In this document: piece by piece, positions 6,783 to 60,098 of the stretch
Layout: every line of letters begins with the position of its first letter
Position numbering within the stretch: position 1 is the stretch's first letter
NCBI RefSeq assembly: GCF_026151205.1
Contig: NC_087076.1
Coordinates: 15,894,419 to 15,958,418 of the forward strand
Direction: 5' to 3'
Source: Bolinopsis microptera
Lineage: Eukaryota; Ctenophora; Tentaculata; Lobata; Bolinopsidae
DNA length: 64,000 nucleotides
Position numbers and translations under genes: made by a program
The notes under the pieces: model-generated
What the model saw: only the letters and a program-made list of their open reading frames with translations
Database searches by the model: none
What the model was told of the DNA's origin: nothing

Positions 6783-8236
6783 CTAAAAGTACTGCAGATA
6801 AGCTTCCAGCAGCTGGAGATTAGATTTGAACTGTCTCCACTTCTGAACTACTAAAGTTAATCGTGACCACACAAAAGTTCTGAAACTGGGCACGAAGTTA
6901 TAGATGAAGAAGTTGCTCAGTGTGTTGAGATAAGCAAGTGAGACTGCCAGTCTGTAGAAGTGGAGGTGGAAGTAAATGTTTGTGACAGGAACATGGTCCT
7001 CTCCTAGCCGGTATATTGCGTAGGGCAGTCTCATTAAACTATATAAAAAATAAGAATAAAGAATAAGGAAAAGGAACAGGAATGAAGCCAATACCAGAAG
7101 TGAAACCCCACCAAAGAATAATTGATCCTTAGGTAGACCTGGTGAAATAAAGTAACTGAACTGTAAGTTTAAGAAAAGACGGAAGGAATAAAGGAGAGAG
7201 GAAATAATGTTATGTGAACATCATCAGCAGATGACTTGGCACACCGGTTTCGGGGGTTTAATACCTGTACCGGTTTAATGTGCCAAGACCCCCTAGCAAT
7301 CACTCGTCAGTGATCACCTGTTCACGTTAAATGTGATGTCAAGGATGTCGCTGACATCAAGTATACTGTATTTGTACAGAATACTAGGCCGGTCTTTCAG
7401 AAGCTTTCTGAATTTACTCTTCAGGAGTCTGTCATTATAACATCTTGAAAGAAGTGTCCTATAAAGGGTGTTGGTAGAACACAGAAAAGAATCAAGGTCA
7501 GGTATAAGATACCGTACACCACAGCAGTAAGAACAGCAGTTATTATCCCCTGGTACCTGGGGTATTGTCCTACCTTCCGGGAGAGTTTGTTAGCTTGAAT
7601 CAGGTGCAGTATCATGATCACCGTGCAGGTTACAACCACGAGGTTGGGGATTATCATAGTCAGGGTTATTTGTAGAGGCATCAGCCTGGCCCACGTGGGG
7701 GAAGTGAACAAGTAGTCGCACCCATAAGACCTGAAGTCGAACCTAACATTGTCCTTATCTACCAGCAAGAGCAAGAGTAGGAAGAAGGAAGCTGATATCC
7801 AGACAGCTGCACATGATACATGAGAATGCCACCAACTCAGAAACCTGGTTTTTAGCGGGAACTTTAGAACGAAGAGTTTGGTGGTTGTCATGGCACATAC
7901 CAGGAGTACGCTGACCGTGTGGAAGTAGTTGTAAGTGTAGCCGAGCAGGTAACACAGCCCCTTCCCAAACACCCACTTCTGGGTTATAAGGGACACTGCT
8001 CTGGGTAACACGGTTGTTACAGCTACCAGGAGGTTACATACCGCTATATTGTGGATTATCACTACGATCAGCTTGTTCAGTTTCAGTGCCTGGTACTTTA
8101 CGGAAGCTATGAGGATGGTGGTGTCTCCTAGTAGAGATGCTAGCAGGATGAAGATGTGGTATCCTATCCAGGTGTCGTGTAGTGCGGCGTTCTGGATCCC
8201 ATGTAGAGCGATGTTGGAGATGTTAGAGGGGAGCAT
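6783..8236 (-). CDS. Class A (rhodopsin-like) G-protein-coupled receptor, two exons
   Basis: Exon 1 is 7518-8236 and exon 2 is 6783-7038 in the preferred model (975 nt, 324 residues). The N-terminus MLPSNISN carries an N-glycosylation sequon. TM1 to TM5 lie in exon 1, including the Asn of TM1/2-type motifs, a Cys at the top of TM3 (GKGLCYLLGY) and a Cys in the second extracellular loop (SYGCDYLF). TM3 ends in TTTKL rather than DRY. Exon 2 begins after a pyrimidine-rich acceptor (ttttttatatag) and supplies LMRLPYAIYRL, completing TM6, and TM7 with NFFIY in place of NPxxY. An unspliced form would read past 7518 to a stop at 7421 and encode an alternative hydrophobic end (LILFCVLPTPF). Ligand unknown. 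Family call is strong; the exact splice is inferred. Confidence 0.8.
7039..7517 (-). other. GPCR intron with an imperfect inverted repeat
   Basis: Inferred intron with donor gtacgg and acceptor tatatag (minus strand). Around 7234-7290 it contains an imperfect inverted repeat (cttggcacaccggttt facing ccggtttaatgtgccaag), resembling a small hairpin element. The region next to the donor remains open for 30 codons, so retained-intron transcripts would be translated into a different C-terminus. Confidence 0.5.
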
Positions 8237-9194: not shown

Positions 9195-10402
9195 GCGACA
9201 TCTGTCCGACAGCGACATCTGTCCGAATCAGGGTACCAGAAAAAAACGACATCTGTCCGAAATTGTGACCTGATTTCAATACGACACATTTCCAATTAGA
9301 GACATGATCTAAACTGTTACTTGCTAAATTGTATACGTAACATGTCCAATTTGAGATATGATCTGAGCCATAGTTTACTACCAAATCATCTACAAATCAT
9401 CTACAATCATAACGGATCCATTTGGGTGCACGAGGCTCAGGCAATTCCCGCCCGTCTCTTTTGGTTTTCTTCACGTCTGTAAGGGCTTGTTCTGCTTTAA
9501 GGCAATCAAGGAACTTCCAAATTGAGGGCTTCGAGCAGGACAGCATTGAATGGAATCCGTGATGCCAACCTTCTGCGATGTTGGATGAGCGAGGAATCCT
9601 CATCTGTGCAGCTTCGTGTTGATTCCACATGTGGGGAGCGAAGTTAGGATTGGTGGTTGATGTCCCGATCCAAGTGTTTTCGTGTCTCCAGATTCGAGGG
9701 ACGTCAGTCTCCGGTACGTAGGCAATCGCTCCGGTCATCGCGAAGAAATCCCGAACAGGAGAGTTTGGAGTCAGGTACTCCTCCCAGATGTTGGTCTGCT
9801 TAACATGCTTCAGGAGGGCTTTCTTGTAGTGGAAGTTACATCCGCTTCTGGTAGTGGAGGGCCACACGGAAGCAACTGCGTTGTGAATGGCGAGCTCGTA
9901 GTCCATGAGGATGGATTGTGGTTGGTAGCCCCCAGAAGCCCAGGTGTCTATCTCCTCGAACAGGTTGCGGTAGAGGGTCGTCGTTTTTCCAGGAAGGCGT
10001 GTCTGAAGCCATTTAGGACAGGGTTCTCCGAGCCTTGTTTGCGTCCAGGGATAAACTGAAGATTGGTTGCCATTGTGGATTGCGATAAGTGATCTCCATA
10101 CTGCTGTCCTATATGTATTCATGTCCTGTGATGTGATCGACAGCTTGTTAGGGTACGGCTAGCACGATCCTGTTCTCAACTAGTCAATCACGTATCGATG
10201 GATCAGATCTTAAGGGATCACATCAGCTTTAGAACGTCACGAGATTACCCGTGAGCTTGTGAAATACGAATGTGAACCGAAATTACAATATGATCCGAAA
10301 TTCGGACAGATGTCGCCAAAAACGACTCCTGTCCGACAGCGACATCTGTCCGAAATCCCTAATTCAGCTTTCGGACAGATGTCGCTGTCGGACAGATGTC
10401 GC
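9195..10402 (-). mobile_element. MULE-type DNA transposon with 33-bp terminal inverted repeats
   Basis: Positions 9195-9227 and 10370-10402 are exact 33-bp inverted repeats built from the word gacatctgtccg twice. They enclose a partial MULE transposase on the minus strand. Further internal copies of the same word lie at about 9247-9262 and 10302-10357, so the ends are modular. No clear 9-bp target duplication is visible. Related copies lie at 23633-23767 and 29417-29825. Confidence 0.8.
9397..10122 (-). pseudogene. MULE transposase, N-terminally truncated
   Basis: A 241-residue open frame matching the C-terminal half of MULE transposases. It contains ILMDYELAIHNAV (second catalytic Asp region), then GCNFHYKKAL (the conserved C-x-FH signature) and RSSNIAEGWHHGFHSML (third catalytic acidic residue region). 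The first catalytic Asp region and the N-terminal zinc-finger part expected in full-length proteins (usually over 400 residues) are missing, so it is probably inactive alone. It lies between the element's terminal repeats. Confidence 0.75.
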
Positions 10403-10830: not shown

Positions 10831-13800
10831 ACCGCCCTGTACCAATTCTCACATGTTAGATGTTTCAATTAATTAAGAGGGGCCTATGTATCACATGTTT
10901 TTTTTAATGGGCATATGTCAAAATTAAATCAACTACCCCAATTAATTGAAAAGCTTCAGGAACATTTTCAGAGTGTCGGCCAGTCATTCTTTCCATTTAG
11001 GATACATAGAAATCAAATTCAAATGCCTATCCTAAAGTTAATTTCCATAAATAGGTTTTTATGCATTATCTCAAAACGACTTTTTTCGACATAAGCCTTT
11101 TCTATTTTAATTTATAGGTGACGATGTATGGATCAGGATATATCGCTCTCTCCGCCTCTGCAGGGAGTGGGACAGTAGGTCCAGCTTCTTAAGACAATCG
11201 CAAGAATCCAATTTTTGACACTACCGCATCTCCAACAAGTCCTATATTTAATTACGTTTGTATATTTAACTGGATAGATCAACTTTATCTAAGTTGATTG
11301 TAAATAAATTCCAAGCAGCAAATGCTGAATAGGCAAATGGGAAATCATAGGAAATCGGGCGTATCTTAGCCTTTAAATGCAATCCTATCAGCCGCTTTCG
11401 CCATATATCTCAGCAGAGTACAGACAAACAATAATTGTAAAGTCGCTTCTTTCTGGCTGTAACATTTAACGTGTCCCGAATTTTAAATTTAAAACCCGGT
11501 GGAACGCATCTTCTTGGCTATTAGCCACCTTCTTGGCACATTTACTCTTCCTTTGTTGCCGTTAACCTGGGTAGGGCCGGCGGTCGAAATGGCAGATTTA
11601 CAAAGGTATGATAATAACACCCTTTTGAAATGGGTTTTCCTGGGCAGTCAAACGATCAGCGAGGATTCAATGAATCTTTATAATATTATGTCGTAGAATG
11701 CTTTCATTGCCCTTTTATTTCTAATTTTGCCGTTCGTCTCTGCGTCAGAGCACAAAATTAGGGGATGGTACAAATCCAGCTAGTCAAGTGGTCACGTCTG
11801 CAGCCTCACTACGCTGTGCAGCATCGATAAAGACTAAAAGAACTTTCTGGAACGCCAAAAAACCACATACTGAGCTGTGATTGTCCTTTATAATGGTTTA
11901 GTGGCATTAGTCCGTACCTGATTGTAGAATACTATCGTGCATTATAACAGAGGGAGTCATGTGGTCGCGATGGCATTTAGTGATGCTTCAAACTTGTAAT
12001 CGGTTCTTTGCGTTATAATTTAATAGTTAGCATTATAAATTTATCAATCTCGTACAAAAATTCGACCGTCTCGGTCCTAACATTAATACCCGACTCTAAA
12101 ATACTAGGAATACTGAACACTAGTCTGAGAGCTTGACTATAACATAAAGTATAATAATAGTATAATAAGATAAGAGATCGTACGTGTCCTTCATCTTATA
12201 CTGATTTAGATAATAATAATAATGGTATTGGTAATATCATTAAAGAATCTATTCTATATATTATTCTATATAATAAATGTGATAACAACATATTGGCCAC
12301 GTACAAATGAGTTCTCACAAACTAAAGTAAAGTTTGTTTAGTGAAGAAGTGTCAACCTTAGCGAGATCAAAGTGTTGTCTCATTGGACCCCGGGCCTCTA
12401 AATAGATAGCGGAGGTGCTGGTGGTCTCCAAATATAAGTATCATATTAAATCTCAAACATCTTTCAATATTTCGACGTCTGTAAGATTAATTTGAGAAAC
12501 CTAGTATACTTGACCTTGTGACCTAATACATGGCCTTATAATCAATTACCTTATAGTTAGTTATGTACAATACACCTGCCTCGTCAAATTAATCTTGTGA
12601 CCGTTTGACCCCGTGGTCTAGAATATTGTTGGCTGAGGAAATGATTTACCATGCGGGATACATTGAATTTATAACAACCAAAACGACTAATTAAAACGAC
12701 GAAAACTTCTTCTATAATTGACTCTAGATATAAAGTTTCTTAAGTAGACTTGCTGTTCAAAAGCTAGTATCGAGGTCGACTAATATTTTGAAACAGATCC
12801 TATTCTGCGTTGAGATATCTGCTTCTTGAATATACTTAAAAAGTTACAAAATTGTCTTATCTCATCAACTCTCCATTTCAGGTGATAATAAGATCGCTGA
12901 GAAGTGTATTTTCGTACGTGTACACGCTCTGGATGTACGTTTATATGGCAACCAAGTCGAAACTGAGACAGCATAGGACTATAGCTGCTGGGTGATCGTG
13001 TGTATCTAGATTTAAATTATGTCAATTCAATTTTATTTTGTTCGTGTATTATGAATGATGTTCGAATTTTAAATTTTATTTTGAATATTTTGACGGATTT
13101 TTGGTTTACTGAATACTCACAGTGTCATTGAATGTTACTCGACAAACTACAGTTTCTTAATAAAGACTTAAGACATGCCCATAATATGACTATTACAATT
13201 TTAAATGGAGATTGTTAATATTTAAACTAGATTAAGTTATTCTTTTTAATTTCCTGTTCATAATTTTTGATAATAAGCCAAAATGTACTATCTCTTAACA
13301 GTAAACTTTGAACCTAATTTCTACCATCGAAATACTATTTGAGTCAAACTTGGTAAAATTTGTAACTGCTAAAGGAAGTGTGAAATGGGAATTGGGATTG
13401 TTTCTTTTGGTATTAACCAGGATATTCTACAGGAGATTCAAAGTCTCTTTCTTTCTTGAACTTTAAATTCTTGAGACCATGTCCCTTTTTATTCGTTTCT
13501 TTTTTTCCTGTATTTCGAACCAAATTCGGTGTATAAACTGTCCAATCTAAGAATCTCCAAGACTTTTACCAACAAGACCCTGAAATTGGACCAAATATTT
13601 TTCACCTTTTGATTGAGTTGATTGGATTTACGTTTAATAAGATAGGTTTGTATAACTTAGTAAGAGATATGTTGTGTTGGATGTATGGGTTTATAACCAG
13701 CTTATGTTGTGGTTTATTTATTGGTAAAATATATCCGTATCTATTTTATTTAACAAAAGCACGCTATTTATTTATACACAAAACAGATAATATCATGGCA

Positions 13801-14020
13801 TTTATAAACGCATTTCATAGCTGAAATAATTATTAGCATGTTCTCATAACACTAACAGAATAATGTAAAGTTGCCTACAATTCAACTAAAATAAAATACC
13901 CAATAAAAGAGTAATCAAGAGTAAAATGATTTACTGGAATAATATCCACATAATTATCCACGCTCCACTAGTGTGTCCAGAGTCAGTGCCCTCAACTATA
14001 TTACTAGCCCCAATCAAAAA
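10831..14020. other. AT-rich interval without a recognised gene
   Basis: More than 3 kb of AT-rich DNA. Short open frames (for example 11499-11696 and 13609-13824) have no motif. A possible small coding-looking segment follows an acceptor-like site near 11119, but it cannot be joined to anything. It is the downstream flank of the first DDAH-like gene. Confidence 0.4.
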
Positions 14021-15347
14021 CAGTATCCCTCCTTCTAAATACCAATATCGAGAACAGAGCACCTGATACTGCCACCACTTTTACGGTATCCCTCCTTCTA
14101 GATACCAATATCGAGAACAGAGCACCTGATACTGCCACCACTTTTACGGTATCCCTCCTTCTAAATACCAATATCGAGAACAGAGCACCTGATACTGCCA
14201 CCACTTTTACAGTATCCCTCCTTCTAAATACCAATATCGAGAACAGAGCACCTGATACTGCCACCACTTTTACGGTATCCCTCCTTCTAAATACCAATAT
14301 CGAGAACAGAGCACCTGATACTCTGATACTGCCACCACTTTTACAGCATCCCTCTTTCTAAATACCAATATCGAGAACAGAGCACCTGATACTGCCACCA
14401 CAAACAGTATCCCTCTTTCTAAATACCAATATCGAGAACAGAGCACCTGATACTACCACCACTTTTACAGTATCCCTCCTTCTAGATACCAATATCGAGA
14501 ACAGAGCACCTGATACTGCCACCACTTTTACAGTATCCCTCCTTCTAAATACCAATATCGAGAACAGAGCACCTGATACTGCCACCACAAACAGTATCCC
14601 TCTTTCTAAATACCAATATCGAGAACAGAGCACCTGATACTGCCACCACTTTTACAGTATCCCTCCTTCTAGATACCAATATCGAGAACAGAGCACCTGA
14701 TACTGCCACCACTTTTACAGTATCCCTCCTTCTAAATACCAATATCGAGAACAGAGCACCTGATACTGCCACCACTTTTACAGTATCCCTCCTTCTAAAT
14801 ACCAATATCGAGAACAGAGCACCTGATACTGCCACCACTTTTACAGTATCCCTCCTTCTAAATACCAATATCGAGAACAGAGCACCTGATACTGCCACCA
14901 CTTTTACAGTATCCCTCCTTCTAAATACCAATATCGAGAACAGAGCACCTGATACTGCCACCACTTTTACAGTATCCCTCCTTCTAAATACCAATATCGA
15001 GAACAGAGCACCTGATACTGCCACCACTTTTACAGTATCCCTCCTTCTAAATACCAATATCGAGAACAGAGCACCTGATACTGCCACCACTTTTACAGTA
15101 TCCCTCCTTCTAAATACCAATATCGAGAACAGAGCACCTGATACTGCCACCACTTTTACAGTATCCCTCCTTCTAAATACCAATATCGAGAACAGAGCAC
15201 CTGATACTGCCACCACTTTTACAGTATCCCTCCTTCTAAATACCAATATCGAGAACAGAGCACCTGATACTGCCACCACTTTTACAGTATCCCTCCTTCT
15301 AAATACCAATATCGAGAACAGAGCACCTGATACTGCCACCACTTTTA
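14021..15347 (-). repeat. 63-bp minisatellite (about 21 units) derived from the last exon of the DDAH-like gene
   Basis: Units of 63 bp (21 codons) repeat from about 14021 to 15347. On the minus strand each unit reads, in the gene's frame, K-S-G-G-S-I-R-C-S-V-L-D-I-G-I-stop followed by a short linker. This is exactly the C-terminus and stop of the adjacent gene, whose CDS ends inside the first unit. Most units are identical; a few have c/t changes, an 8-bp duplication (near 14320) or a short deletion (near 14400 and 14590). The array should be transcribed as a 3' UTR. Confidence 0.93.
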
Positions 15348-17766
15348 CGGAACTCCTGGTAAGGGGTGATTAGAATCTCGTAACCAAGATCTGTTAACTT
15401 CTTGTGCAGTTCCGGAGAGAATGCCATCCCAACTACATAGTGCTTGTCTCCATCTGGCAGGGGAGAGGAGATAGTCAGGATTGTCAGTAGTTACTGGTAA
15501 CTATGGTAACTATGGTAACTATGGTAACTATGGTAACTATGGTAACTATGGTAACTATGGTAACTATGGTAACTATGGTAACTATGGTAACTATGGTAAC
15601 TATGGTAACTATGGTAACTATGGTAACTATGGTAACTATGGTAACTATGGTAACTGGGTAGCTAGTTTAGTGTGTTACATGAACTAGCTGCAATTTCCGG
15701 AATTTGTTTGCGTTTTTGGCTGGCTACACGAATGAACAAGTATTAAGTTTTCAGGCAAGATGCCAGGCTAATGTAACGTTATGTGGAAGCTTTGTAGCAT
15801 GGTTATACTCATTTTAATAACAGGTTAAGTGTTGGCACATGGTATCAGAAACGACCAACAAGTACAATTAACACTGCTTAAACAGCTGATAAAGGATCTA
15901 ACCGTGGACAGGAATAGCGTTTGGTACAAAGTTGTCCACACAATCCTCTTCTGATATCTCTATAATGTTATCTGCCCCGTTCACTTCTCTGGGGAAATAA
16001 ACTTTTTATACACGTTACTGTTAGAGTGTAAGATATCGTTATAATATTGCTTCAGCCAGTCTCTTAGACAATTGCCGGGTGCAGTTAAGTGCTGTTTGCT
16101 TTAAACTCATAAAATTCAAAGATCACCCAAACGGTTCAAGATAACCACAGCTGTAACATGCTCACTTGATAAGATTGAAGGAGTGTGTATCAAATGCCGG
16201 AGGGAACACTAGAACATGGCCCTGAGACAGGCTCAACATGGCTGTATCAAGATGATAACACAACTCGGAGACTAGGTGCAGGCTGTGAAACTCCGTTCCT
16301 GTGAAGTCGATAACGTCCTTTACTAGGTCGTAGGATTCTTTATCTGATCTGATAGTTAATGTTATAGTTAGTGTATAGTTAGACCGGCAATTGTGTTCTT
16401 TTTTTGCCAATAAAATATAGATTTATAGAAGAAGGTGCTGATGCCGCCTGGTATTAACGAAAGACAATATTGGTATTGCTTGCTGTGTTTTTCGTGCTCA
16501 AACATTCAAGTCATCATTAATTGTACATTACGTGCTGCGACAGTCGATTTGGCAGGAACATAAGGTAATTCATTCATGATTATGAGAGTAAGGTTGGTAC
16601 CGTCGGCGATCAAGAGTTTCTAATTTTGGGTGTGGAGACATATTGACGATGACAATTCATATTCACACGCAAGAAAAGTCTACCTGAATCCGTATCCTAA
16701 GTAAGCATGTTTTCTGTTGTAGTTGTAAGCAAAATCACCACATCCCTCCAGGTTCAAACCATGAGGTCGAGAATCGTATACCTGCAATAATTTTAGTCTG
16801 GTCCAGGTCAGTAAGATAATTGGAACGTTCTGTGATTATTTCAATATGATTGCTGTGCTGCAAGAAGTCAAGAAGAGACTAAGGGATAACAATATTCAAT
16901 TTATTATTAATTGAATGATGTTTGATAAAAACTAATAATTTACTTTATTAATGTCAATGCGGGTCATGACTTCCCGACAGCCGACAGCGGTTTCCACCAC
17001 TTACCTCGAAGTTCCTTTCCTTAAACCACTCTATTGTGGGCTCTGACTCAGCTCTGCGTGGCGGGTTGAACATGTTTGAAATAAGAGCTTTCCCTCCCCA
17101 GACCAGAGCACAATTAGCACAGAAAACCTGGTCAACCTGACCCGGCATGTTCTTTATAACCTCCACCTAGGCAGTGCAGGGTGGCTGAGACGGCTTTGTG
17201 ACGCATTTGTTGCATCATCATACAACAAGATCATTAGTATGGAAGTAGAGGAAATATTTCTTTTAAGGTAAGTACAGGACAGAATTGAGAGGGAACAAGA
17301 CACAATTTTGTTGAAAGTTAACCGTTCTTGGAAGTTACCCAAGTGATCTGACCGTGTTTGTTTGTAGTGCCATAATGGTTAGTGAAAAAATGTTTAATGT
17401 GATTGTACCTCCACTCCGATAGACTCAAATGTTGATTTGACTCCCTCCCACTGTTTCATAGCAAGAGCCCTATCCACTGGTGAATCCATTGTCATGTACG
17501 CGTTATGCCCCTGCAAATATAAGTTCACGTGAGACGACTGACGAGCTAACCAGAAAATGTATTTCGTTGTTACTTTTCAAATATTTGGCAGAATACAATT
17601 TTGGTGAATAATTTTGCACAGTCAGTATTTATGAATATGATTAAGTATTTCAGTAAATTTGTTCTCAGGATCGATGAGATCAGACTCTCACCTGGTGTAT
17701 TACGTCAAAGGAAGTGGGTTGGCACATCATCAACCGCTTCCAAGATCTGACAGCGAGATTTGTCAT
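15299..17766 (-). CDS. DDAH-like guanidino-group hydrolase, paralogue 1 (seven exons)
   Basis: Exons (minus): 17692-17766, 17409-17510, 17005-17166, 16684-16781, 16166-16348, 15903-15988, 15299-15453. All borders are GT..AG and phases fit; the CDS is 861 nt, 286 residues, close to the usual size of dimethylargininase/arginine-deiminase-related hydrolases. Family signatures in order: MMCQPTSFDVIH, SPVDRALAMKQWEG, QVFCANCALVWGGKALIS, RRAESEPTIEWF, LEGCGDF (about residue 125), GYGFRSDKESYDLV, YHLDTAMLSLSQGHVLVFP (His178) and KSGGSIRC (Cys279). The acidic, His and Cys residues of the catalytic set are present. Such enzymes hydrolyse methylated arginines or related guanidines to citrulline products; the true substrate is unknown. 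A family FACNAV-like motif is FVPNAI here. The last exon merges into a minisatellite. Confidence 0.88.
15496..15655. repeat. 9-bp microsatellite (ggtaactat)n in intron 6
   Basis: About 17 uninterrupted copies of ggtaactat in the last intron of DDAH-like paralogue 1. The unit contains ggtaact, which resembles a 5' splice site on the plus strand and gttacc on the minus strand. The array begins about 43 bp upstream of the last exon in gene orientation. Confidence 0.95.
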
Positions 17767-20466
17767 GTCCTTAACTTCAAACTTGGATTGTAAGTGAATG
17801 ACTCATTAAAAATAAAAACAATTTAATCGAGTGAAGTTATTTTATGTGAAAATCTCAGCTAATACTAATAGAGCTTAGCGGGTATATAGCCTGCTTTAAT
17901 ATAACACGGACCTCGTTATAAGTATAACGCAGTTTTGGGTAAATTGTCCCCCTCAACTGCTTATAATACAAATAAAAAACCCGTGGTCACAGGGAGGAAT
18001 CTAATAGTATTTTTTGTTAGTAAGTTTAAATCGCGTCAAAAAATATCCTAAACAAACCGAAGATACAGCCGATTAAAATGTTGCTCGCACTAAACACAAC
18101 GTAATATCAACAAAACCGATAAAAAATGCCGTTTTAACAATCTTTGCACGTGCACGTGCGTGTAACAACCCTCGTTACCATGGTTACTACGCAAGTTCAT
18201 ATTTTTCGTTTGTTTTGCACGTGGGCGGTCGTACATACATACATACAAAAATAATTCTTTGAATTACAGTAGAGATTACAAGCGATATCAATAATGCGCC
18301 CCAATTATCAACCTCGCTCGCTATAATAACGGACCTGGCTGTGACGCGGTTTTTTGGTAAACATTATTCTGTCCCTCGCGATGTTTTACTGTACAGGTAC
18401 TAGCAGTAAATAGTACTAGTAGTACTACTAGTCCTGGTTACAGAAGTTATTTTCATAGTTTAAAATACACAGATACAAGATAAGTCCAGTTTGGGATCGT
18501 GCCCATTTAAAATTACGTTAGTAGCTTATGAGGATTTGTTAAAACTTTAAAAGCAGACGTTGTATGCGAAATATTTTAGATTCCTCCATTATAGATAATT
18601 CTCAAAATGTATTTGGGGAAGATGAATAAATGCGGATTTTTAATGGTTTTGAAGTCCTTCGAGCGTTCATTTTAATGTCCGTTCAACATTATGTCTGTTC
18701 ACATAATGTCTGTTCAAATAAGGTCCGATAAGGTAATTCGGACGGACATTAGTGTGTAAGCGCTAATATCCGACCGGAAACTTCCACAAACTGACATGAC
18801 TCAGCAAGGATCAAGTTCAACAAGCTCAAAAAGGATAGCAAACAAAGCGATTATCTTTATATACGACGAAATATGGATGGAATTTACAAATTGAGTGTAT
18901 GCAAATACGCAAAATGCATGAATAATCTGAACTTTAACAGAAATTTGAATATAAATTTGAATATATCAACTTCCAACTAACAATGTTTAAAAACAGTTAT
19001 TTAATCAAATGTTAAACAGAAAGGTTTAACTTTAGGTATGTCGCGTCGGTAAAAACGTAATAGCATATTACCTAGTATAACACACGAGATGAGAGAATCC
19101 TTACTCTATTATGAAAATACCTCTGTAATATTAGAACTTAATTTCAATGTACAATCCTGACCAAGTTTGGAAGCCCGCCGAAATTCGATCTCGGATCTTA
19201 GCGCTGGTATTTTTCTTTTAAGCCACTTGAAGTTGAATACTTTTCCGGATTCTTTGTTATTCAGAAATCTGATTCTATAAGCCTATTACTCTATCATAAA
19301 CTTATCAGGCATAAGCTAACATTTAACAATCACATTTTTGTAGAATTGTTCAGAGCCTTGATACAGCTCAGACAGTAAATATATGTGTCTAGACCACTGC
19401 TGCCCCACTTGGCGAGATGTCAGGCTTGTCTAAAAACTCCTTCAGTGTACAAAAACTGGAAATTTCATCTGTCAATAAAGTTCTTAAAGTTAAATTTAAA
19501 AATAGTAGTTCTTAACGCAGCGTCACGGCTTGTAACTGTATGTGGCAAAATAAAAAATTAATTATCTGCCTAATGATCAGGACACCCTACTAAGCTACTA
19601 GTGATAAACATTTTTGGATCGAGTAGTGATTCCAAGCAAGAGCGTATAAATAGGGCCTTTAATAGGGCCTTTAATAGGCCCCTAATAGGGCCCCTAATAG
19701 GGCCTTTAATAGGGCCCCTATATGGGACCTTCTCTCAGTATTGAATTCAGTTCTGTAATCAGATTCTAACTTCACTCATAAAATCAATCGAATAATCATC
19801 AACTATCTAAAATCTTATTTCATCTTTATCGTACGAAAAAGAAAAATACGAATTTGAATATTGAAATCTCCAGAGTTACAATAAATAAGCGGCTGAAGCC
19901 AACTTCAATGGCGAAATTGAAACAAATTCTTTTGTTTTAAATCAAAAATATTCATGATAAAATTATTAAAATCTGTCAAATTGAAATAAACATATGAAAT
20001 AATTAATAAACAATGTAACTGTTGATAATAATGCCCCTATACTAAAAATATATGCCCCTATACTGAATTTATATATCTGATATTTACTGATAATATGATA
20101 CTTAGATTCAATATAATAATAATAATAATAACTAGAAATTCATACATCGCTTTATAGCCAAAAAGAACTCAAAATCCAAAGATTCAGTTCAAGCCATCTA
20201 AAGCGACTCATGAACATGTACATAAGAACTTAGAATGTTATGAAGTATGGTTGTAGTATATAATGTATGATATTATTTATATATATGATATGTGTTCGTT
20301 ATTTTCTCTAACCAATGTTCACTAACAAGCAATGGTCTCCTGCTCTTCACTCTTCATGACATGATGAGATGTTTGGTGGTATGGTGTTAAATACTCAAAC
20401 AACTTCCCTGGATTCGTTTCATCCGTCACAAGCGTCCTTGTAAAGCTACTCCAGGTGTTTTATGAT
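17767..20466. other. Spacer between the two DDAH-like paralogues
   Basis: No exon recognised. It contains a fragment of the tccgataaggt DNA-element family (18655-18765), a short array of tagggcccctaa/tagggccttta words (19655-19725) and a segment at 20107-20240 that recurs at 31060-31200. The promoter of paralogue 1 should lie just above 17766. Confidence 0.45.
18655..18765. mobile_element. Terminal fragment of a pogo/Tigger-like associated DNA element
   Basis: Contains cttcgagcgttcattttaat, repeated gtccgttca words and gtccgataaggt, shared with 51481-51600, 52772-52900 and 55165-55252. Those copies are next to or include pogo-like transposase remnants, which suggests a common family of non-autonomous ends. 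Confidence 0.6.
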
Positions 20467-23400
20467 TTACACATCTCTTGTCTGAGCGATGTCAACCACA
20501 CAGCATCTCACTGCACCTCCACTGAGCAGAAACTGATCGTAATCTATTTGTACACATTTGTACCTGTGGCGTGAGGTTCTTTTTAGTCATTCGGGAAAAT
20601 TACAGTTATTATCATGGAATAAATTGGCGCAATCATTTCGATTTGTGGTAGTAAAAGTAAGCTACGTTTTAATTTTAACATTTTCCATCCCTATAATCGT
20701 AATTTTATATCAGATTCAGATCAAACAAAATACGTAGTTTTCACAAACCCTAGGTCTTGTAAAACATTTCCGAGTCTGTCACTGAAATGTGGAGCAACTA
20801 CAACTGCTTCCAGGTCGTTGCTGATAAAGGATACACAGTTGCAGGAAAACTGGAGACCCTCCTCCAAAGTTAGCTCGATCACTTTATCTCTACTACCTGG
20901 GTTATTGGATATAGTTATAAAAGCTATGTTTTATAGGGCTTACATAGCTGTTTCATGTCCAAATACAGCGATATGTATCAATATGTAGAAGTTGTACAGC
21001 AATACTAAGGTAATGGGACTACTGTGGACCCTCTACCGGCCAAAACTTGTTATTGTTAACAAAGCCAAAGTCAAGGTTCGGTGAACGATAGTTAAAAGCG
21101 CTTAAAGGACATAAGTTAAAGTGGTAGAGCAGCATCATGAAGTGGACATCTCGAGAAATTTTTATTAGGTACAATGCAGGGTTGCTCCTTCATAAATCGT
21201 CTTTTTCTTCGATAATAAATTGACATAAAATCTTTAAAATTATTCGAGAGGAATCTAGAATAATTTAGTTGCGGCTAACACTCGACCTCTGCCTGATACA
21301 GAGGATGTCACCATTTTACCTTCAGACAGACATCGAACGCTGTACGAAGATGACGATCAAACCTCGTTACAGCGATAAATAGATTCGAAGGTTCTGCAAT
21401 GCGGATCCGCTTCGAACTGGCCGACGGTCAAACATCCACCACTAAATAAAACGGTAAAGATACTCCAACTCGGGCTCCAATAGCTAAAAGTAAAAAGGCT
21501 TGATTGATCATGTGACTGTTAATTACCTAGAGCGTCATATACGTTCTTCAGGGATGCTTCGTCAAATGCTCCCGGGTAGAGCATAACATGTCCTAGAGAC
21601 AGTGGTGCCATGCTAACATCCAGGTGATAGAATCTCTCTGAAAATACGACGATTATTAAGTAGGTGATTCTGATAACTGATAGAATCTCTCTGAAAATAT
21701 GACCATTATTAAGGTAATTATTAATTAAGTGATACTGATAACCGATAGAATCTCTCTGAAAATATGCCGATTACTAAGGTAATGATTAATTAGGTGTTAC
21801 TGATAACCGATAGAATCTATCTGAAAATATGCCGATTACTAAGGTAATTATTAATTAGGTGTTACTGATAACCGATAGAATCTATCTGAAAATATGACGA
21901 TTATCAAGCAGAGGCAACATGCTAACATCCAGGTGATAAAATCTCTCTGAAAATACGCGGACGATTATTAATTAGGTGATTCTGATAACTGATAGAATCT
22001 CTCTGTAGATATGACCATTATTAAGGTAATTATTAATTAGGTGATACTGATAACCGATAGAATCTCTCTGTAAATATGACGATTATCAAGCAGAGGCAAT
22101 TCGAAAGTGCGGAATTGCACTATTGATCTATCACCGCACTTTTTTGCACCATCGGCTGTTGTTCGTTTTATCAGATTTGTGTACGTCAATTTGACATCGC
22201 TGTATACAGTGAGAAAATATTGACATGCCCATAACTATGGTTAGGGGCACACATCTTTTTATTAAACAAAAGATGGCGAATCTTGGCATATGAACAACTT
22301 ATCAAGCTGATCGCAACCTCAACAGATTGAAATTGAGTCACTTTATTTTAGTCACAAGGGTCCAACACATTCTGTGTCAGTGTAACTGTAAGTCGCTTAT
22401 ACACCTAAAGATTCTGTGTCGACCAACGGAACTAAAATAAAGTGACTCAATTTCAATCTGCTCATCGCCAGGGTACACACGTACTGTAGTTCGATAAACC
22501 CTAAAGTTCGACTCTGTCGAACTTTATTGCGCTACCTTGGACTGTAGTTCGACACACACTGAAGTTCGACAAAACTGTAGAACCTCATTTCGCTACCTGA
22601 ATTCTAGTTCGACACGTACTGTTTGACAAAAGAACTGCGATTGGATAAAAAGACATTCACGAAGATAAATTTAGATTAGCTTTTGTAATTTAGATTAGCT
22701 TCCGACTCAGTTCCACTTTTGTAATTTAGATTTGCTTCCAACAGAGTTTAATTGAAGAATTTTAAGTCTACATAATACTGTTTCTGGGAAAAAATTTGAA
22801 GTGATCCCGTTAAAATTATGTTGTTCGATGGATACTATTACTGTACATAATAGAATTAATTGTCAACAAGCAACTTTGCTGCACATAAAACGTTTTGGCC
22901 AGGTGCAGAATCGCAGTTCACACTATTTACAAAATATTGCAACACCTACAATCTACATGTTGCCTTTGTTATCAAGGTGATACTGAGAAAGAATCCACCT
23001 GGAAATATTATGACAATTATTCGTCACTCTCTACTAAACGTCTCTGACTCTCTATAGTAAAGTAGTAATGCTAGTAACCAACACGACTAGTACATACCGT
23101 CGTTATTGGCTATTGTAAGGACAACATTTTTTCCATCGCCTAAAAAGGCAATAGATGGTTAGAAGTGGTAGGATTTGAGAATGGGTACAGTGGGTATAGG
23201 TTTTTCGTCGTGTCACAAAGCAAAACATGCATTAACCTCCGCAAACACGTGCTCCTTTACAAATTATCACTTGATGGTCGCGCGCGCATTTTACAATGCT
23301 TTTATGTCAAGGTGTACTCTATACCAAGAATCGAGCTAATAAATCGTGTCGTCGCGCATGTATATCTCTTTTCGCTATTATACATTTTGATTCGCATTGA

Positions 23401-26400: not shown

Positions 26401-29400
26401 TCTCCGACCAGTGCAAGTGGGCGGTATATAGTAAGTATATAGTAAGATAGTGCCAAAGATATTTAACAAGGGTGATTTAACGAAAAATTTGAATTCATTT
26501 GAAACGTAAGTGGTCCGTACCGCTCTTTGTAGAACGATTTTAATTACGGCAATTGTTTCATTTTAAGAAAGAGTTACAGGAGTACAGAGGAAAATTGTGC
26601 ATTTAACGATTATAATTTGAATCATTTCAATCGTGCTCACTGCTCAATGGGAATTTCAATCAATAATTTTATCTGGCTAGCAAATTAAAAGATAAAACAC
26701 TTGGCAGCACACGAATATAAAAGTAAGAGACAATGCCCATAAATCAGTTGCCAGAAAATATCGTTTTTCATCAAGTTGTGCACCAACTAATCTTTCCTCA
26801 TCCTTTGATACCATCATGGCCACCAGCCAACTCCTAACCATATCAGGTAAACGTAAATTCATTATAAAGTCAAATGTTCGCAAAAAACCAACCCAAAATT
26901 TAGATTGTATCATGAACCTTAGCTATTGCTTAATTCTGATCTTAGTTGTAGTGAACGCTGAACTTAGTCGTACAATGAGATAAAACCATGTTGTCGGAAT
27001 TAGACAGTAAATAAACAATAATGAATAAAAATAAGTCACTAGTATAGCAAATAGTAATGAAATTATTGCTCCTTAATTCGTGAATTGTTCATAAGACGCA
27101 AACTTGCGTTAACATAAATAAGGTCTCGCTGCTTGTCAACTGTGAGGCGGTTTCTTTTTTTGTTTATCACCCAGTCGTACAAGCTCCAATTCGTCTCACA
27201 GGGTGACATGAGGCTGATGTCGATTGCGACAGCGCTTTCATTGCAAAACTCTGTAGTTCGGGTACCTCGCAACCGAAGTTGCTCCACCAAGAGACTGGAT
27301 CGTCAGAATCTTGGCTAAAACTTGAGGCAGCGTCAGTACAGAATAAGCCTCTTTTTTTCTCGGTAGAACGTGTACTGCGAAATTATCTTCTTCTTTGTTG
27401 CGCCGTCACACCACGTGTCCATGACATCTAGAAACTCCTTCCAGACATCCTGATTCGTGTGCTGATCATATCCCTGATAAGCCGGGTGAGCACAAAACCC
27501 TACTGAATGTAGGGGGAATGGAGCTCGAGCCACCTTTTGTTGGCAAGACTAACCATATCACTTTTATGGTTTCTATTGCGGAAAGCAAAATTTGCTAACT
27601 TTAAGGTGAACAGATAATATTTGTAATAAATTACACCGATGAAACCAACAGGAATCTTAAGAATCAAAAAATCATCAAAAAACGAGGTCCAAGATTTTCA
27701 AAATCGAATAAAATTTTTTAAAGGCCTATCTCGAAATTCTGTCTGGCTCATCTCTTCTAAATGATCCTTAGAACATATACTGAAAGTTTCAGGGTGATTG
27801 CTCAAAAAATGTAGGAGAAAATGGATTTTTAGACTCGATTTTCAGGGCACGCGATCAAAAATCGCTCGCGCAATACAATTACCACACACGCGCTGACCTT
27901 TGACCGGCAATAATTTCGGCTAGGAACGATATTTTTCCACGGCATCAAAAGCATCTGATAGATATTACTCCCCTCTATCAGAAACAACTAACTAAAAAGT
28001 CGATTTTGAGAAAATTTCCATAAGACTCCCCTGCCCCCATAATACAGTCAAGTCGGCTATAGACAATTGTCTTACACGTTATCAATATGTCCTAGTTAAT
28101 AAAGGACGATGGGTTGAGCAAATTATTAATCATTAAGTATTTTAATTGTATTATCATAAAAAGTATATATTTTCATTACCTAAATATGCAAAAGTTAACT
28201 GGAAATTTCATTTGTCAAAAAAAGTAGAGCCATTTACTTTCCACACACTATTTTCAACTCACCCTGTATTGTCTGAAAATCTAAGCAAGACCATTATCGG
28301 CTCGAGAATTGAGCATAAATAGTCGACTTCTATCCAGAAATGGGGGTCAAACACTAAATCTTTAGCGCACTCAAACAAATTCTTGTATGCATTACTTTTA
28401 TTGCTAACAGACTCAGTAAGGGTTGGATCAATATAAGTCTTAATCAAAGTATCCTTGGAACCCTTCAGTCTCTCTAACATAATAAACTGGGTGGCAAACC
28501 GAGTTTCCCCTGGTTTTAGCAAATTGACAAGAGAATGGGTTCTTAACGTTTTTAGAATCATGTCGTGATTCTTCACATTTGTAACTATTTTGTTACAATT
28601 CGACAATGTCTCCTTGGTCCAGCTCAACTTCCCGACATCCTCGGCAAGTAGATCGAACTGGTGGGTTACACAGCATGATCGTATGATGTGTTCATAATCA
28701 GCTTCGATTAAGCGTCGTAGAGATTTATTGACATTTGGATTGTCTGTTACAACGTGGCAAATCCTGTCGGCAAGTGGCAATGGAAACGCTAGTACTTTGC
28801 CGGATAATTGGGCTATGTCCGGCATTTTAATTTCATTATAGCAATTAACGTTCCTTATGTTCCGAACGTTAAAATCTTTTAGCGAACGCGTTCACAAACT
28901 ATTTTTAGTGAACGTTCCGTACGTTCACTACAACTAAGGCTTTAAAAGATAACTTTGAACGCATGACAACCCTTTTCAGGCCAAAAAATGCACGCATTGC
29001 TTTGGTTTTAAGATTTTGTTGAGCGATCTGTACTTGACCCGATTGATGAAGTTCAAATCCAAGGTAACAATAACTGTCAACAATTTCAAGATTAGATCCG
29101 TTGAGTGTAAATTTGATGTTTTGTGTGTCCTGTTTTAACGTTTTCTTACCAAAGATGACTGCTTGAGTTTTGAGTTCATTGATTTCAATGCCCCACTCCT
29201 TACAAAAATTACCGAGAATATTAAGTTGCTTTTGAGTGGTTTCCTGGTCGAGTGAAAGGAGTATAAGGTCATCCGCCCACAGTAGGTGGCTAACAGTCAA
29301 ATTTGAAAGTACGGGGCAATTTGGAAAATCTAGGAGGCAGGACATATCACTGAGAAAAACTTTAAAAAGATCAGGTGAGAGTGGGTGACCTTGTTCTGTA

Positions 29401-32400
29401 CCTTTACGTTCACGAGTCACGTGTAATCTTGTGACGTTGCTCCTACAGTCCTAATATAATGCTGATTTGATCCATTGAGATCTGATCCATCGATACGTGA
29501 TTGACTATTTGAGGACAGGATCATGCTATAGCCGTACACTAACAAGCTGTAACAAGCTGCCAATCACATCACAGCCTACATTACACACAGGAGAGCGGTA
29601 TGGAGATCAGTTATTTATATAACATTTAAACTATTGTCCAATTTTTGACTTTAAATGAAAATAAACTATGGTAGAGTTCAGCTCAGGTCATATCTCAGTT
29701 CAGATCATGTCTCTAATTGGAAAATGGAAATGTGTCGTATTGCAATTAGATCACAATTTCGGACAGATGTCTTTTTTTTCTGGTAACATATTGAGTCGGA
29801 CAAGAGTCGCTGTCGGACAGATGTCCTTTTAACTGCATCATGCATATTGCATATCACCGCACAGGCTGCGCTACGGTTGTCCGGTCGTTTAACTTTCGAT
29901 TCAAATAATTGACAACGGCAACCCCTCCATTTTGTTCTCTGTAACGCCCCAAAGAAATTTGGTAATTTAACCAATATGAAACGATTGTTAATTGTAATTA
30001 ATTACGGGCGATGGAAATCTAGCGTCCGCTAACCGGCGCAATTCTTGTTAAAATTGTAGTTATAGCCGTCCAAAGTTGCTTATGCAAAAATAACTTTCCT
30101 AACCGTCAATCAGTCTAACTTTAAATGCGTCCTTCTTGTCCAAAGAGAAAAAGTCCAAGACAAGCTCATAAGAACTCTCGGCAGTTCTCTGTCCCCAACC
30201 AAAGAAATACCTTGACAGATCATGAGTGGGGCTAAACTCCGCGTTACCCTCGCAGAACATGTACGGTTTACCCTGTAGCAATGTTTGGTTATGTCGATAT
30301 TAGACATACAGTTTACTCGAGTTTTAACTTTTGGATGTGATATAAAATTTTTGCAACTTACTAGACATATTAAAATGGACATGGTGCGAAAGTTGGTGGT
30401 TTTTGGAAAAAATCCCCAAATACCACGATTTAATTTGGGGTACGAAATTTTTCAGTTTTCGGAAAAATCCCCATATTTTCGTTCCCAAATCATTTAGGTC
30501 ACCGGAATTATGTCGAACATGAATATTGAATATGTCTTGTGAGGTAGTTGGAATATTAATGACGAGGTTTGAATAACTCACGATCTTCTCAAGTTCCTCC
30601 ACTTCGAACCCCTGGTTTCTAAACCAGTTAGCGAAGTGCGCAGATTCTGTCCTTCGTGGCTCCACTGCCATCTTCGCTATCAGAGCTTTGTTGTTCAGCA
30701 CTATCGCTGAGTTGGCAGCAAATACCATGTCAACTTCCCCTGGATTGTTGGTAAATGAAGGAGTGCTAAAACGCGAACGTGATTGATATTTTTGTGCAAA
30801 TATATTTACCTGTCAATAATCGTGCATTTAGGTCATTTTCGTCGGAAGGAAAGTGCCCGAAGGATAGTGATGGTATTGAAATCAAAGATTCGCTTATAAT
30901 ATATACCTGGAGCTGCAGGACAGATATCTGTGTGAAGTCCAAGATTGTTAAAAGTTTCTCTAAGAGCTTGCCATTGCGACACAGCCTTTACTTTGTTAAC
31001 TGGCTTTGAACAACTACAGATATAACTGTGAACATTTATCGATAGTTACGCATGAGTAAACTAATAAATAATAATAGTAATAATAATAATTAGAAATTTA
31101 TACATCGCTTTATAGCCAAAAAGAACTCAAAACCCAAAGATTCAGTTCAAGCCATCTAAATTCTAAAGCGACTCATGAACATGTACATAAAAACTTAAAA
31201 TTTTATGAAATATAGTTTTTATGAAAAAGATATTATATGATACTTATATGAATTCTTTTTCAAAGAGAAGAGTCTTTAGTCTGAAACACTTTTTAGTCTG
31301 AAACACACATAAGTTTAAAACACTTGATTCATGATGAATTAAATTCACTGAGGTAAAGATAACATTCTGAAACAATTTAAAACATTAGTAAAAACTTAAA
31401 ATTTTATGAAATATGGTTTTTATGAAAAAGATATTATATGATACTTATATGAATTCTTTTTCAAAGAGAAGAGTCTTTAGTCTGAAACACTTTTTAGTCT
31501 GAAACACTTTTTAGTCTGAAACACACATAAGTTTGAAATACTTGATTCATGATTAATTAAATTCAGTGAGGTAAAGATAACATTCTGAAACAATTTAAAA
31601 CATTAGTAAATATTAACATAAACTGAAGTAAATGAATAAATAAGAATCATTACACTTTTTAAACAAGACAATTATATCGGTCAATGTTCTCAATTGATAG
31701 GGAAGCTGATAAGGAAATGTGGTTAATTAATGTAGTTATCCAGGTATTTTAATCTAGCTGAATATGGCGATTTTGGGTTTTTTACCGAATTTCGTATAAC
31801 ATACATACATACATGTTACATGTTACATGGTAAGGTCTCCTCCTAGTCGTCGGAGTGGCCTGCATCACACACATCGCGTTGACGGCGTAGCATATGTCTC
31901 CACTGTACTCGGTTGGTAGCCAGAGCTCCTATTGTGTTGTTGTCGATGTTTTCAACACCTGTAAACTTAGCAGCATCTTCAATCTTCATTCTTCAAGTAC
32001 GCAGGTCTTCCAGTTCTTACGGGGTCTACCCCTTGACCTCTTTCCATAATTTGGCTTCCAGTTCAACAGAAACCTCGGTAGTCTAGAGTCTGGCATTCTA
32101 ACTACATGTCCATACCAACGTAGCCTGGCAGCACTGATGAAAGTCTCGACTGACTTGATGCCAGCCCTCCTAAGAACTTCTTCGTTGGAAACATAGAAGA
32201 ACCATTTAATCCTAAGGATCCTTCTTAGGGAGGTCTGATGGAAAACCTCGAAGCGTTTCATTTGCTTTTTGGTGGTGTTCCAGACTTCAGCTCCATACAA
32301 CAAGATGGTGAGGACAGCAGCCTTAAAGATCCTGATCTTGGTTGGAGTCTTTATAGTTCTGCTATTCCAAATGTTCCAGAGCTGATGAAAGGCGCCATTA

Positions 32401-35400
32401 GCCTTCTGGATACGGACATCCAAGTCTCTGTCGATTGTCCCATCCCCACTGATTGTTGCACCCAGGTAGACAAAGTTGCTAACCTGCTCAACGGGTTCAC
32501 CCTCAACCGACAGCTCAATACAGTCATCCTTGATGAAAGGTCGCTGGGAGGCGCAATTGCTTACAGCCATGAATTGGGTCTTCTTTGCATTTATTCTGAG
32601 CCCAGCGTAGGAGCTGTAATAAACTAGTAGATCAGTTGACTCCTGTAGGCCTTCACCTGAGTTGTCCTTAATAGCCATGTCATCAGCATAATCGGTGTCC
32701 AGAATGACCTTTTCCTCAACTGTCTTCATCTCCTTCTGCAGCACTGCGCCTTGACTGATGGTGTTGTTGGTCTCAGCTAGATATGCAGAAAAGTTTAGGC
32801 AGAAATTAAAGACAGGAGGTGCTTGAATGTCACCCTGACCTGTGCCTGAGTTAACATCAAACCAGTCTGTCAGCTCTCCATTAACCCTCACTGCACTCAT
32901 AGTACCCCCAAAAAATGACTGAAATATTCTGATATATTTTTCAGACAGCCCATAGTGTCTCATACTGCACCAAATAAAGGTCCTTCTAATAGAATCGAAT
33001 GCTGCCTTGAAATCGACAAAATTAATGAAAAGAGGAATGTTAAACTCAAGACAGTTATGAATAATAGTTCGGAGAGAATAAATCTAATCAATACATGAGC
33101 GGTTCTGTCTGAATCCGCACTGATTCTCCCTGAGAAGACACTCCATACCAGCATGTAACCGCTTGAGAAGAATCATCTGAAAAAGCTTGGATGCTGTAGA
33201 CCTTAAAGTGATCCCTCTGTTGTTCCCGCAGACTGAAGTGTCCCCTGTCTTCCCAATAACAATTATCACACCCTTTAACCAATCTTGAGGAACAGTCTCT
33301 TCTTCCCACACTTTCTTGAATAGACACTCTAGTTGATCAACTAGAGCACTCGCATCATACTTCAGTTGCTCGTTAGTTATCCCGTCCGGTAATCACACTA
33401 TATAATGACAACACTATATAGTGACAAGCACTTTATAATGACAGCTGATCTTTGTCATTATATAGTCTGCAAAACGCACTATATAATGACAACACTATAT
33501 AGTGACAAGGGTCATCCCAGAGGAGGGGATCGCCAGTCGCAGTGTTGAGGTATGAAGGGGGAATTGACAGGAACTCGAGGGATGTGGGGTGGTTTGGTTG
33601 TCTGTTCGCAGCCGCTCGTGCTGTTGGTACCATCTTCGAGAGGCTGCTGGTCCGACATCCAAGGTTAGCTCTGCACTCGAAGTCCAGTCCTGAAAGAACT
33701 TCAGCAACGATCCGTTTAGTTGATGTGTCCGATGTCGCTGCACGTTCCTTTGTCATCTTCTTAGAGCGATGGACCAGGATCTCTGCTCTTTGTCAGGGAA
33801 TAACTAATCTAGTCTCTGGTGGGTGGTCCATCCGAACAAGAGAGAGAGTCTAAGTGGGGTTGGGGTGATACTGTATCAAGGTCGGCTAGGTCGACACTTG
33901 ATAATCGAGGATTCAGAAGTTCGGTAAAGTGCTCCTTCCACCTATCCATCTGCTGTTGGGGATCCGTGATCTTCCTATCGTCCTTGTCCCGGACAAAAGA
34001 TGCTTGAGGCTTCTTGTTCTTACCAGAGATCTTCTTGATCTTTGCCCATACCTCACGCTGCTGACCTTTGCTCGCTGCTTCCTCAAGATCAGTAGCTACT
34101 CTTACTGCCCAGTTATTGTCGTCTAGCTTGCTGCTTTTCTTGACTAACTTATTAAGTTTAGAATACTCTGACCTGTTAGCGTCCGAGTTTGGGTCTCTGC
34201 GCTTAAACTGTGCCCGCTGAATCAGTAGATCCTTGGTCTTCCGTGACAGGTGTTGCTTCTTTGCCTTCCGGGGTCTTTTGCCGAGTACCTCCAGTGAGAC
34301 ATCAGTGACGGTCTGACTGAGATTACACCACATATCCTCGAGGTCGACCTCACTATCCAGACTTGCGAATCGGTTTTGAAGAGCCACATTGTACTCAGTA
34401 ACCTTAGTTCTATCCCTCAGGCGCTCAATGCCAGGCACATTGTGCCTGCTGGCGTTGATCTTCGTCACTGACTGAAGTTTGATTTTTAGCAGTCCTAGCA
34501 CCAGATAATGATCGGAGCCGATATCTGCCCCGCGACATACCCTAACATCAAAAAGTGACTGACGAAGCCGCTTTCCAATGCAGATATGGTCTATCTGATT
34601 GACCGTGAGCCCGTTGGGGGACCGCCATGTTCCCTTGTGAATGTTCTTGTGCTCGAAGAGAGTTCCCCCGATGACAAGCTGGTTCGTCGCACAGAAATCC
34701 ACAAGTCTTGTCCCGTTGTCATTTGATGAGCTATGGAGTGATTCCCCACCGATGACCGCTTCACTTCCATATCTGCCTGATGTTATTTTTGCATTAGAAT
34801 CGCCGAGCAGTAACTTGATATCGTGACGAGGTAGCCCATCAAATGTGTCTGTGAGTGTCCTATAAAACTTATCTTTCTCACTCTCCTCTGCACCCTCTGT
34901 TGGAGCATAGGCCACAACGACAGAGATGTTGATTTGCTTACTATGCAGCCTAGCAGTTAAAACCCGCTCCGATGTGGGAGTGAACGATATCAGGGAGTTT
35001 CTGATTCGTTTTGAAAGACTTGAGGCCGACTCCCTGTCTCTTGATCCCGTCGACTCTACCGGAATGGATGAATAGACTGCCATTGTCCAGTAGAGTGGTG
35101 CCAGATCCAGGCATGTGAGTCCATAGTTGGCTTGTGGTGTTACCACTCCCAGGTGTTCCGACGCTACTCGGACTCGGACCAAATGCATGAGGAGCATAAT
35201 ATAATATATATTTATTATATGCTCCTCATGCATTTGGTATATATATATATATAACATGCTGGTGCGTAATTAGAATGTTTTGAACTTAAATATACCTGCT
35301 GAACTACTTTCGATGAGTATTAATGTCTGAAAAACAACAAAGGGGATATAATAGTATAGGGGGTAAATAATATTGTGAATATAATGGCAACGGTAATGCT

Positions 35401-37215: not shown

Positions 37216-38305
37216 AGAGGGAGAGGGAGAGGGAGAGGGAGAGGGAGAGGGAGAGGGAGAGGGAGAGGGAGAGGGAGAGGGAGAGGGAGAGGGAGAGGGA
37301 GAGGGAGAGGGAGAGGGAGAGGGAGAGGGAGAGGGAGAGGGAGAGGGAGAGGGAGAGGGAGAGGGAGAGGGAGAGGGAGAGGGAGAGGGAGAGGGAGAGG
37401 GAGAGGGAGAGGGAGAGGGAGAGGGAGAGGGAGAGGGAGAGGGAGAGGGAGAGGGAGAGGGAGAGGGAGAGGGAGAGGGAGAGGGAGAGGGAGAGGGAGA
37501 GGGAGAGGGAGAGGGAGAGGGAGAGGGAGAGGGAGAGGGAGAGGGAGAGGGAGAGGGAGAGGGAGAGGGAGAGGGAGAGGGAGAGGGAGAGGGAGAGGGA
37601 GAGGGAGAGGGAGAGGGAGAGGGAGAGGGAGAGGGAGAGGGAGAGGGAGAGGGAGAGGGAGAGGGAGAGGGAGAGGGAGAGGGAGAGGGAGAGGGAGAGG
37701 GAGAGGGAGAGGGAGAGGGAGAGGGAGAGGGAGAGGGAGAGGGAGAGGGAGAGGGAGAGGGAGAGGGAGAGGGAGAGGGAGAGGGAGAGGGAGAGGGAGA
37801 GGGAGAGGGAGAGGGAGAGGGAGAGGGAGAGGGAGAGGGAGAGGGAGAGGGAGAGGGAGAGGGAGAGGGAGAGGGAGAGGGAGAGGGAGAGGGAGAGGGA
37901 GAGGGAGAGGGAGAGGGAGAGGGAGAGGGAGAGGGAGAGGGAGAGGGAGAGGGAGAGGGAGAGGGAGAGGGAGAGGGAGAGGGAGAGGGAGAGGGAGAGG
38001 GAGAGGGAGAGGGAGAGGGAGAGGGAGAGGGAGAGGGAGAGGGAGAGGGAGAGGGAGAGGGAGAGGGAGAGGGAGAGGGAGAGGGAGAGGGAGAGGGAGA
38101 GGGAGAGGGAGAGGGAGAGGGAGAGGGAGAGGGAGAGGGAGAGGGAGAGGGAGAGGGAGAGGGAGAGGGAGAGGGAGAGGGAGAGGGAGAGGGAGAGGGA
38201 GAGGGAGAGGGAGAGGGAGAGGGAGAGGGAGAGGGAGAGGGAGAGGGAGAGGGAGAGGGAGAGGGAGAGGGAGAGGGAGAGGGAGAGGGAGAGGAGAGAG
38301 GGAGA
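37216..38305. repeat. 1.09-kb pure polypurine array of gggaga hexamers
   Basis: About 180 copies of the 6-bp unit with almost no variation; the plus strand is only purines from 37216 to 38305. Open frames on both strands (Glu-Gly, Arg-Glu, Ser-Leu, Ser-Pro, Leu-Pro repeats) are products of the hexamer and not genes. Pure polypurine mirror repeats can form triplex DNA. Confidence 0.97.
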
Positions 38306-59897: not shown

Positions 59898-60098
59898 CCT
59901 GTGGGTATCGGTTAATCTTAGGCAAAACAAGATGGAGGTCTAAAATTATGTAAATTTGTGTAAATTGACTAAAAATATCGTTGGAATAAAATGTTTCATA
60001 GAACCCAAAAAGCAATGAAACTGATACTAAAAAGCCCTCATAAAGTGTCAACAAGCACAAAACATGTATTGAAATCACAGAACAGAAAATCATAATAC

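Follow-up and report, generated by a model that had tools for sequence, protein, structure and literature searches.

The end of the last coding exon of a DDAH-like gene of Bolinopsis microptera, stop codon included, forms the first unit of a 63-bp minisatellite with 21 units. We consider it very probable that this array began as a duplication of the exon end, that it grew mainly on the side of the gene, and that its later units are a nearly neutral part of what is probably the 3′ untranslated region (UTR). By its appearance it is a passive minisatellite such as are already known, and no new device, and it does not alter what is known of the enzyme itself. Its value lies in a known birthplace: protein homology fixes the ancestral sequence, so that the direction and order of growth become readable. 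A second array spans a splice site of the paralogue next to it, and the pair could serve to test whether exon edges seed arrays in array-rich genomes. The window, that is the whole stretch analysed, is 64,000 nucleotides long (15.89–15.96 Mb of contig 5; the assembly has 264.7 Mb in 232 contigs).

Structure and position of the array

The array occupies positions 14020..15346 and reads on the minus strand, with unit 1 on the gene side (15346–15284) and unit 21 at the far end (14082–14020). The corresponding TRF row (14020–15348, period 63, 21.0 copies, 96% matches, score 2453) is far above chance, and this row and the cutting into units both confirm the 63-bp array of about 21 units in the original prediction, which had given no orientation. 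The extent proposed there, 14021..15453, holds for the array part, while 15347–15453 turned out to be non-repeated sequence from further upstream in that exon. Unit length is 63 bp in 18 of 21 units, 61 bp in units 12 and 15, and 71 bp in unit 17, which carries an 8-bp duplication.

Each 63-bp unit comprises 16 codons including the stop and 15 nt of 3′ UTR, and is translated as K-S-G-G-S-I-R-C-S-V-L-D-I-G-I-stop before the final 15 nt. SGGSIRC and TAG had both been ascribed to every unit. This is correct for the stop, whose context GGTAT[T/C]TAG occurs 21 times across the 21 units, and the R-C-S-V-L codons (AGGTGCTCTGTTCTC) are likewise present in all of them. SGGSIRC is intact in only 18 units, the exceptions being units 13 and 16 (CGGSIRC) and unit 17 with its duplication. 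Minisatellites or VNTRs are head-to-tail arrays of ∼10–100 bp units at a single locus, and 21 units of 61–71 bp at one locus have this layout; with 20 units beyond the stop of unit 1, the array is also a candidate 3′ UTR VNTR. Satellite DNA occurs at many loci or reaches very great length, and the single 1.3-kb locus found here does neither. The earlier description of the catalytic motif as having become a satellite was an overstatement: the DNA, and probably the RNA, is repeated, but the gene model has only unit 1 translated.

The host gene

Gene 1 is modelled at 17766–15299 on the minus strand with seven exons, GT-AG introns and a product of 273 aa, whose sole stop is terminal. The exons, all on the minus strand, lie at 17692..17766 (exon 1, with a proposed ATG at 17766 as the putative start codon), 17409..17510 (exon 2), 17005..17127 (exon 3), 16684..16781 (exon 4), 16166..16348 (exon 5, which carries YHLD), 15903..15988 (exon 6) and 15299..15453 (exon 7, the last coding exon up to the stop, with the acceptor CCTGCCAG directly before ATGG). 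The TAG stop codon at 15299..15301 (minus strand) lies within unit 1. The last intron contains 17.9 perfect copies of the 9-bp unit TGGTAACTA (15495..15655), ∼40 nt before exon 7; with the 63-bp array at its other end, exon 7 is flanked by arrays on both sides.

Matches to Pfam, NCBIfam and PDB entries agree in supporting the DDAH-like identity. The protein matches PF19420 (DDAH_eukar) over residues 60–271 (E 4e-17, 62.8 bits, cut-off 23), the NCBIfam arginine dihydrolase profile (3.7e-41, 141.1 bits, below the equivalog cut-off of 450) and NF045659, the profile for DDAH of the Mtb type (1.9e-39, 135.5 bits, below the equivalog cut-off of 300). It therefore belongs over most of its length to the DDAH/arginine dihydrolase (guanidine-modifying) superfamily, and a substrate cannot be assigned because the scores fall under both equivalog cut-offs. 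The PDB matches are to cyanobacterial Sll1336 and Alr4995 (8e-34 to 1e-29; ArgZ structures, residues 11–270), which we take to be arginine dihydrolases. YHLDT and SIRC of gene 1 align with YHLDT and AAKC of Sll1336. The aligned His of YHLDT and the last Cys are presumably the catalytic residues, and by this alignment both appear to be in place in the gene 1 protein.

The match to the Mtb-type DDAH profile stops at residue 271 of 273, two residues short of the stop, and the TAG of unit 1 is therefore the native end of the gene. The earlier statement that the gene ends properly in the first unit thus stands.

Origin of the array from the terminal exon

Unit 1 is the terminal part of exon 7. When the assembly was searched with exon 7, all 18 matches fell at this locus, being the exon itself and array units, and only one was full. 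A 280-base query of array DNA, searched with very common words skipped, gave seven matches, all within the array, so that no copy of the repeat was found elsewhere in the 264.7-Mb assembly. The coding part of the unit corresponds to the conserved C-terminal active-site segment of the family, as seen in the ArgZ structures, and of the paralogue described below. Because this segment is conserved in the homologues and the paralogue, the exon is regarded as ancestral. The single full exon match, the confinement of the repeat and the conserved motif bear out the proposal that the array was copied from the last coding exon; judged from these comparisons, it was born locally from the end of exon 7, and the exon came first. 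The opposite order, in which an older or foreign array supplied the end of the gene, is scarcely credible. The identity of unit 1 with other units is the sole point in its favour, whereas the unit encodes the conserved active site of the family, and the genome holds no further copy that our searches found.

The founding event of this local birth would have been a single duplication of 48 nt with the stop and 15 nt of 3′ UTR from the terminal exon. We infer that the probable mechanism was slippage or end joining between two short, imperfectly matching tetramers, CCGT ahead of the unit and CTGT at the unit end. CCGT closes the flank that precedes unit 1, CTGT closes the last unit, and CCGT is retained at junctions 17–18, 19–20 and 20–21, which would be expected if CCGT and CTGT were joined in the first duplication. 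What counts against this birth model is that the border repeat matches at only three of four bases, below the short flanking repeats of 5–10 bp in the slippage model of minisatellite birth, as given in a review (PMC6947457). Units 13 and 16 start with GTTTGTGG in place of AAAAGTGG; the distal flank of the array is CTGTTTTTG, and a second joining to this flank is a possible source of the two deviating starts.

Growth and variation of the units

The same 63 bp are found in 12 of the 21 units, and units 1–10, on the gene side, are all identical. All nine variant units (11–17, 19 and 20) lie within units 11–21. If nine variants were placed at random, the chance that none lies outside the last 11 units would be p = 1.9e-4 with the 21 units treated as independent, and p = 1.5e-3 with units 11–13 and 14–16 collapsed as one three-unit block duplication; both values are optimistic, since one change is common to units 11, 14 and 20 even after collapsing. 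This one-sided homogeneity suggests that units were added or homogenised on the gene side. Slippage, unequal exchange or conversion, chiefly on that side, would have expanded the array to 21 units. The ten identical units could alternatively reflect one recent block amplification or an error of copy number in the assembly. We consider it very improbable that the copy number as a whole is an artefact expanded from a short duplication. The ten identical units would fit such an error, but the variant units differ from one another and follow a definite order, and the assembly has 232 contigs per 265 Mb, with the window 15.9 Mb into contig 5, which suggests a long-read origin.

Apart from the 8-bp duplication and the complex change with which units 13 and 16 begin, we counted five types of point change, of which two fall in the 48 coding nt, both of them synonymous, and three in the 15 UTR nt (Fisher p = 0.083). 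If CCGT represents the ancestral junction, it no longer counts as a change, and the numbers become two and two (p = 0.24). A random coding transition is synonymous in one third of cases, which gives p = 0.11 for two out of two. The bias towards synonymous and UTR changes is suggestive only. It would agree with a more specific scheme, which we hold tentatively and think rather improbable: growth on the gene side combined with selection on unit 1 alone, so that the 16 enzyme codons, kept by purifying selection, would keep feeding new copies and the distal units would be fossil gene ends. It could be extended to exon edges seeding arrays in this genome, as the exon-edge minisatellites of the two neighbouring paralogues hint. 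Slight support for such a fossil series comes from the two synonymous coding changes and the three of five types in the UTR part.

Transcript and reading frames

On the minus strand, the first AATAAA cluster past the stop lies at 13713..13772 (first bases 13772, 13750, 13722 and 13718), which by match to the consensus only are putative poly(A) signals. There is no AATAAA or ATTAAA on this strand from the stop down to 13772; weaker hexamers start at 14002, 13935, 13806 and 13776. Because the first AATAAA is at 13772, the transcript would most simply end past the array, its 3′ UTR then measuring ∼1.5 kb or more, and the positions of the hexamers make it likely that the array is within the 3′ UTR of the mature mRNA. 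With the stop inside unit 1, the array would leave the protein unchanged, and the later units, probably 3′ UTR, would be close to neutral.

The original prediction had also noted that the unit length is a multiple of three, so that a mutated first stop would only lead to the stop of the next unit. Read-through of the first stop does reach the next TAG after 20 residues plus the one inserted at the stop. There is nothing special in this distance: from random points on the strand the median distance to the next stop is 12 codons (mean 37, with 32% beyond 20), the high mean probably reflecting open stretches within genes and arrays, and a shift by one base gives a frame that stays open over 274 codons. 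The three-fold unit length therefore provides no clear protection. That selection holds a 21-codon unit with its stop as a back-up stop system has next to no probability. All 21 units keep an intact TAG, as such a system would have it, but the frame is broken by the two 61-bp units and the 71-bp unit, the long open shifted frame would make such frameshifts worse, and random points on the strand meet a stop at the shorter median given above. Intact stops are explained more simply by the little time there has been for loss.

Folding of the repeated RNA and DNA

A functional role of the array as a 3′ UTR element, with hairpins at the unit junctions (GATACTGT/GCAGTATC) regulating the mRNA, is unlikely. 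The predicted folding energy of a two-unit stretch is −37.3 kcal/mol (z −3.1 relative to shuffled sequences, of which 1 in 200 is as good), and a fold of the native whole array alone has regular junction hairpins. Under a fairer control, in which shuffled units were repeated four times, the coding strand reached only z −1.5, with 17 of 200 controls folding as well, so that most of the structure follows from repetition. Rfam had no match at gathering score in 13500–23000. The repeated-shuffle control covered 13 unit/strand cases; the other strand gave z −2.6 (5 of 200), and two other arrays came close to these values, a 16-bp array on its minus strand (z −2.1, 8 of 200) and a 40-bp array on its plus strand (z −1.9, 11 of 200). 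As DNA, the single unit folds with z −1.5 and −1.8, and the 40-bp unit of another array with −3.7 (9 sequences). Given the weak result of the repeated-shuffle control and the similar values of other arrays, we dropped hairpins as a special feature of this array.

The tandem paralogue and its array

Gene 2 is a tandem paralogue modelled at 35946–20467 on the minus strand, with seven exons and 308 aa (splice sites and start being putative) and a protein 34% identical to that of gene 1. Its exons, on the minus strand, are at 35946–35837, 31025–30907, 30739–30582, 30272–30104, 21637–21527, 20896–20734 and, with the stop, 20563–20467. An array of ∼65-bp units (pieces of 53–65 bp) at 21652..22090, minus strand, lies in intron 4 and adjoins the acceptor of exon 5. 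The 3′ splice site and exon 5 start, CAG followed by A[G/T]AGATT, is found in eight copies including the real one, and the seven upstream copies are possible decoy acceptors. Here too, protein homology (LIDERFYHLD in Alr4995) establishes the exon 5 start as ancestral. Both matches of an assembly search with this array were at this locus, and it is independent of the gene 1 array. Intron 1 of gene 2 has a reverse transcriptase match and a weak endonuclease match below the cut-off (31986–32963 and 33809–35257, minus strand), probably from a LINE-like element.

A genome search with the gene 1 protein gave 13 matches, all in the window: seven of seven gene 1 exons, three of seven gene 2 exons and three array units. 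It revealed no third DDAH-like gene, although a diverged copy could escape, as four gene 2 exons were missed. PF19420, run on the whole genome, found one exon below its cut-off (18 bits, E 0.17), although the spliced gene 1 protein is well above it; since the search proceeds exon by exon, it tests poorly for further paralogues.

Comparison with known minisatellites

The 40-bp VNTR of human SLC6A3 (DAT1) resembles the gene 1 array as a minisatellite in the 3′ UTR of a coding gene that leaves the protein unaltered. Its unit reportedly has neither a stop codon nor catalytic codons, whereas each unit here consists of 16 codons and 15 nt of UTR. The human CBS 31-bp VNTR, c.1444_1467+7, has by its name 24 exonic and 7 intronic bases; it resembles our arrays (PMC2630376) in a unit spanning an exon edge, a copy number of 16–21 and single substitutions between units. 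It crosses a donor site, whereas the gene 1 array crosses a stop codon and the gene 2 array an acceptor. Variability at one array end is described as common in a further paper (PMC3356730), in which D1S80 mutants instead lie near the array centre. Human minisatellites of the MS32 type, with one more active end, are similar to the gene 1 array on this point; there the one-sidedness comes from germline mutants, and here it is deduced from one assembly. A narrow search of the open-access literature turned up no tandem unit that includes a stop codon or a splice acceptor, and no relevant report of DDAH duplication in invertebrates.

Genomic context

Thirteen array stretches, hand-picked from 68 TRF rows, make up 8.7 kb or 13.6% of the window. 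The exons of the two DDAH-like genes take up 2.7%, to which other genes add further, and at these proportions some contact between arrays and exons is unsurprising. Two exon-edge arrays in one gene pair are at most mildly notable, and our best reading is that both are neutral minisatellites of an array-rich region that started on exon edges by chance.

Among other features of the window, a 6-bp AGAGGG array (37216–39697, 181.5 copies, 99%) adjoins an 8-bp GGAGACAT array. A rhodopsin-like GPCR open frame is present at 7421–8236 on the minus strand (7tm_1, 5.9e-13). Matches to a MULE transposase (9397–10122, minus strand) and to DUF659 (28259–28825, minus strand) are probable remnants of DNA transposons. 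Of five candidate stretches searched for prokaryotic relatives, one locus (L018) gave a match, confined to residues 36–69. A 725-aa open frame at 57753–59930 (minus strand), for which Pfam gave nothing at E 0.001, contains repeats of 27 bp and of 12/24/36 bp, whose periods are multiples of three.
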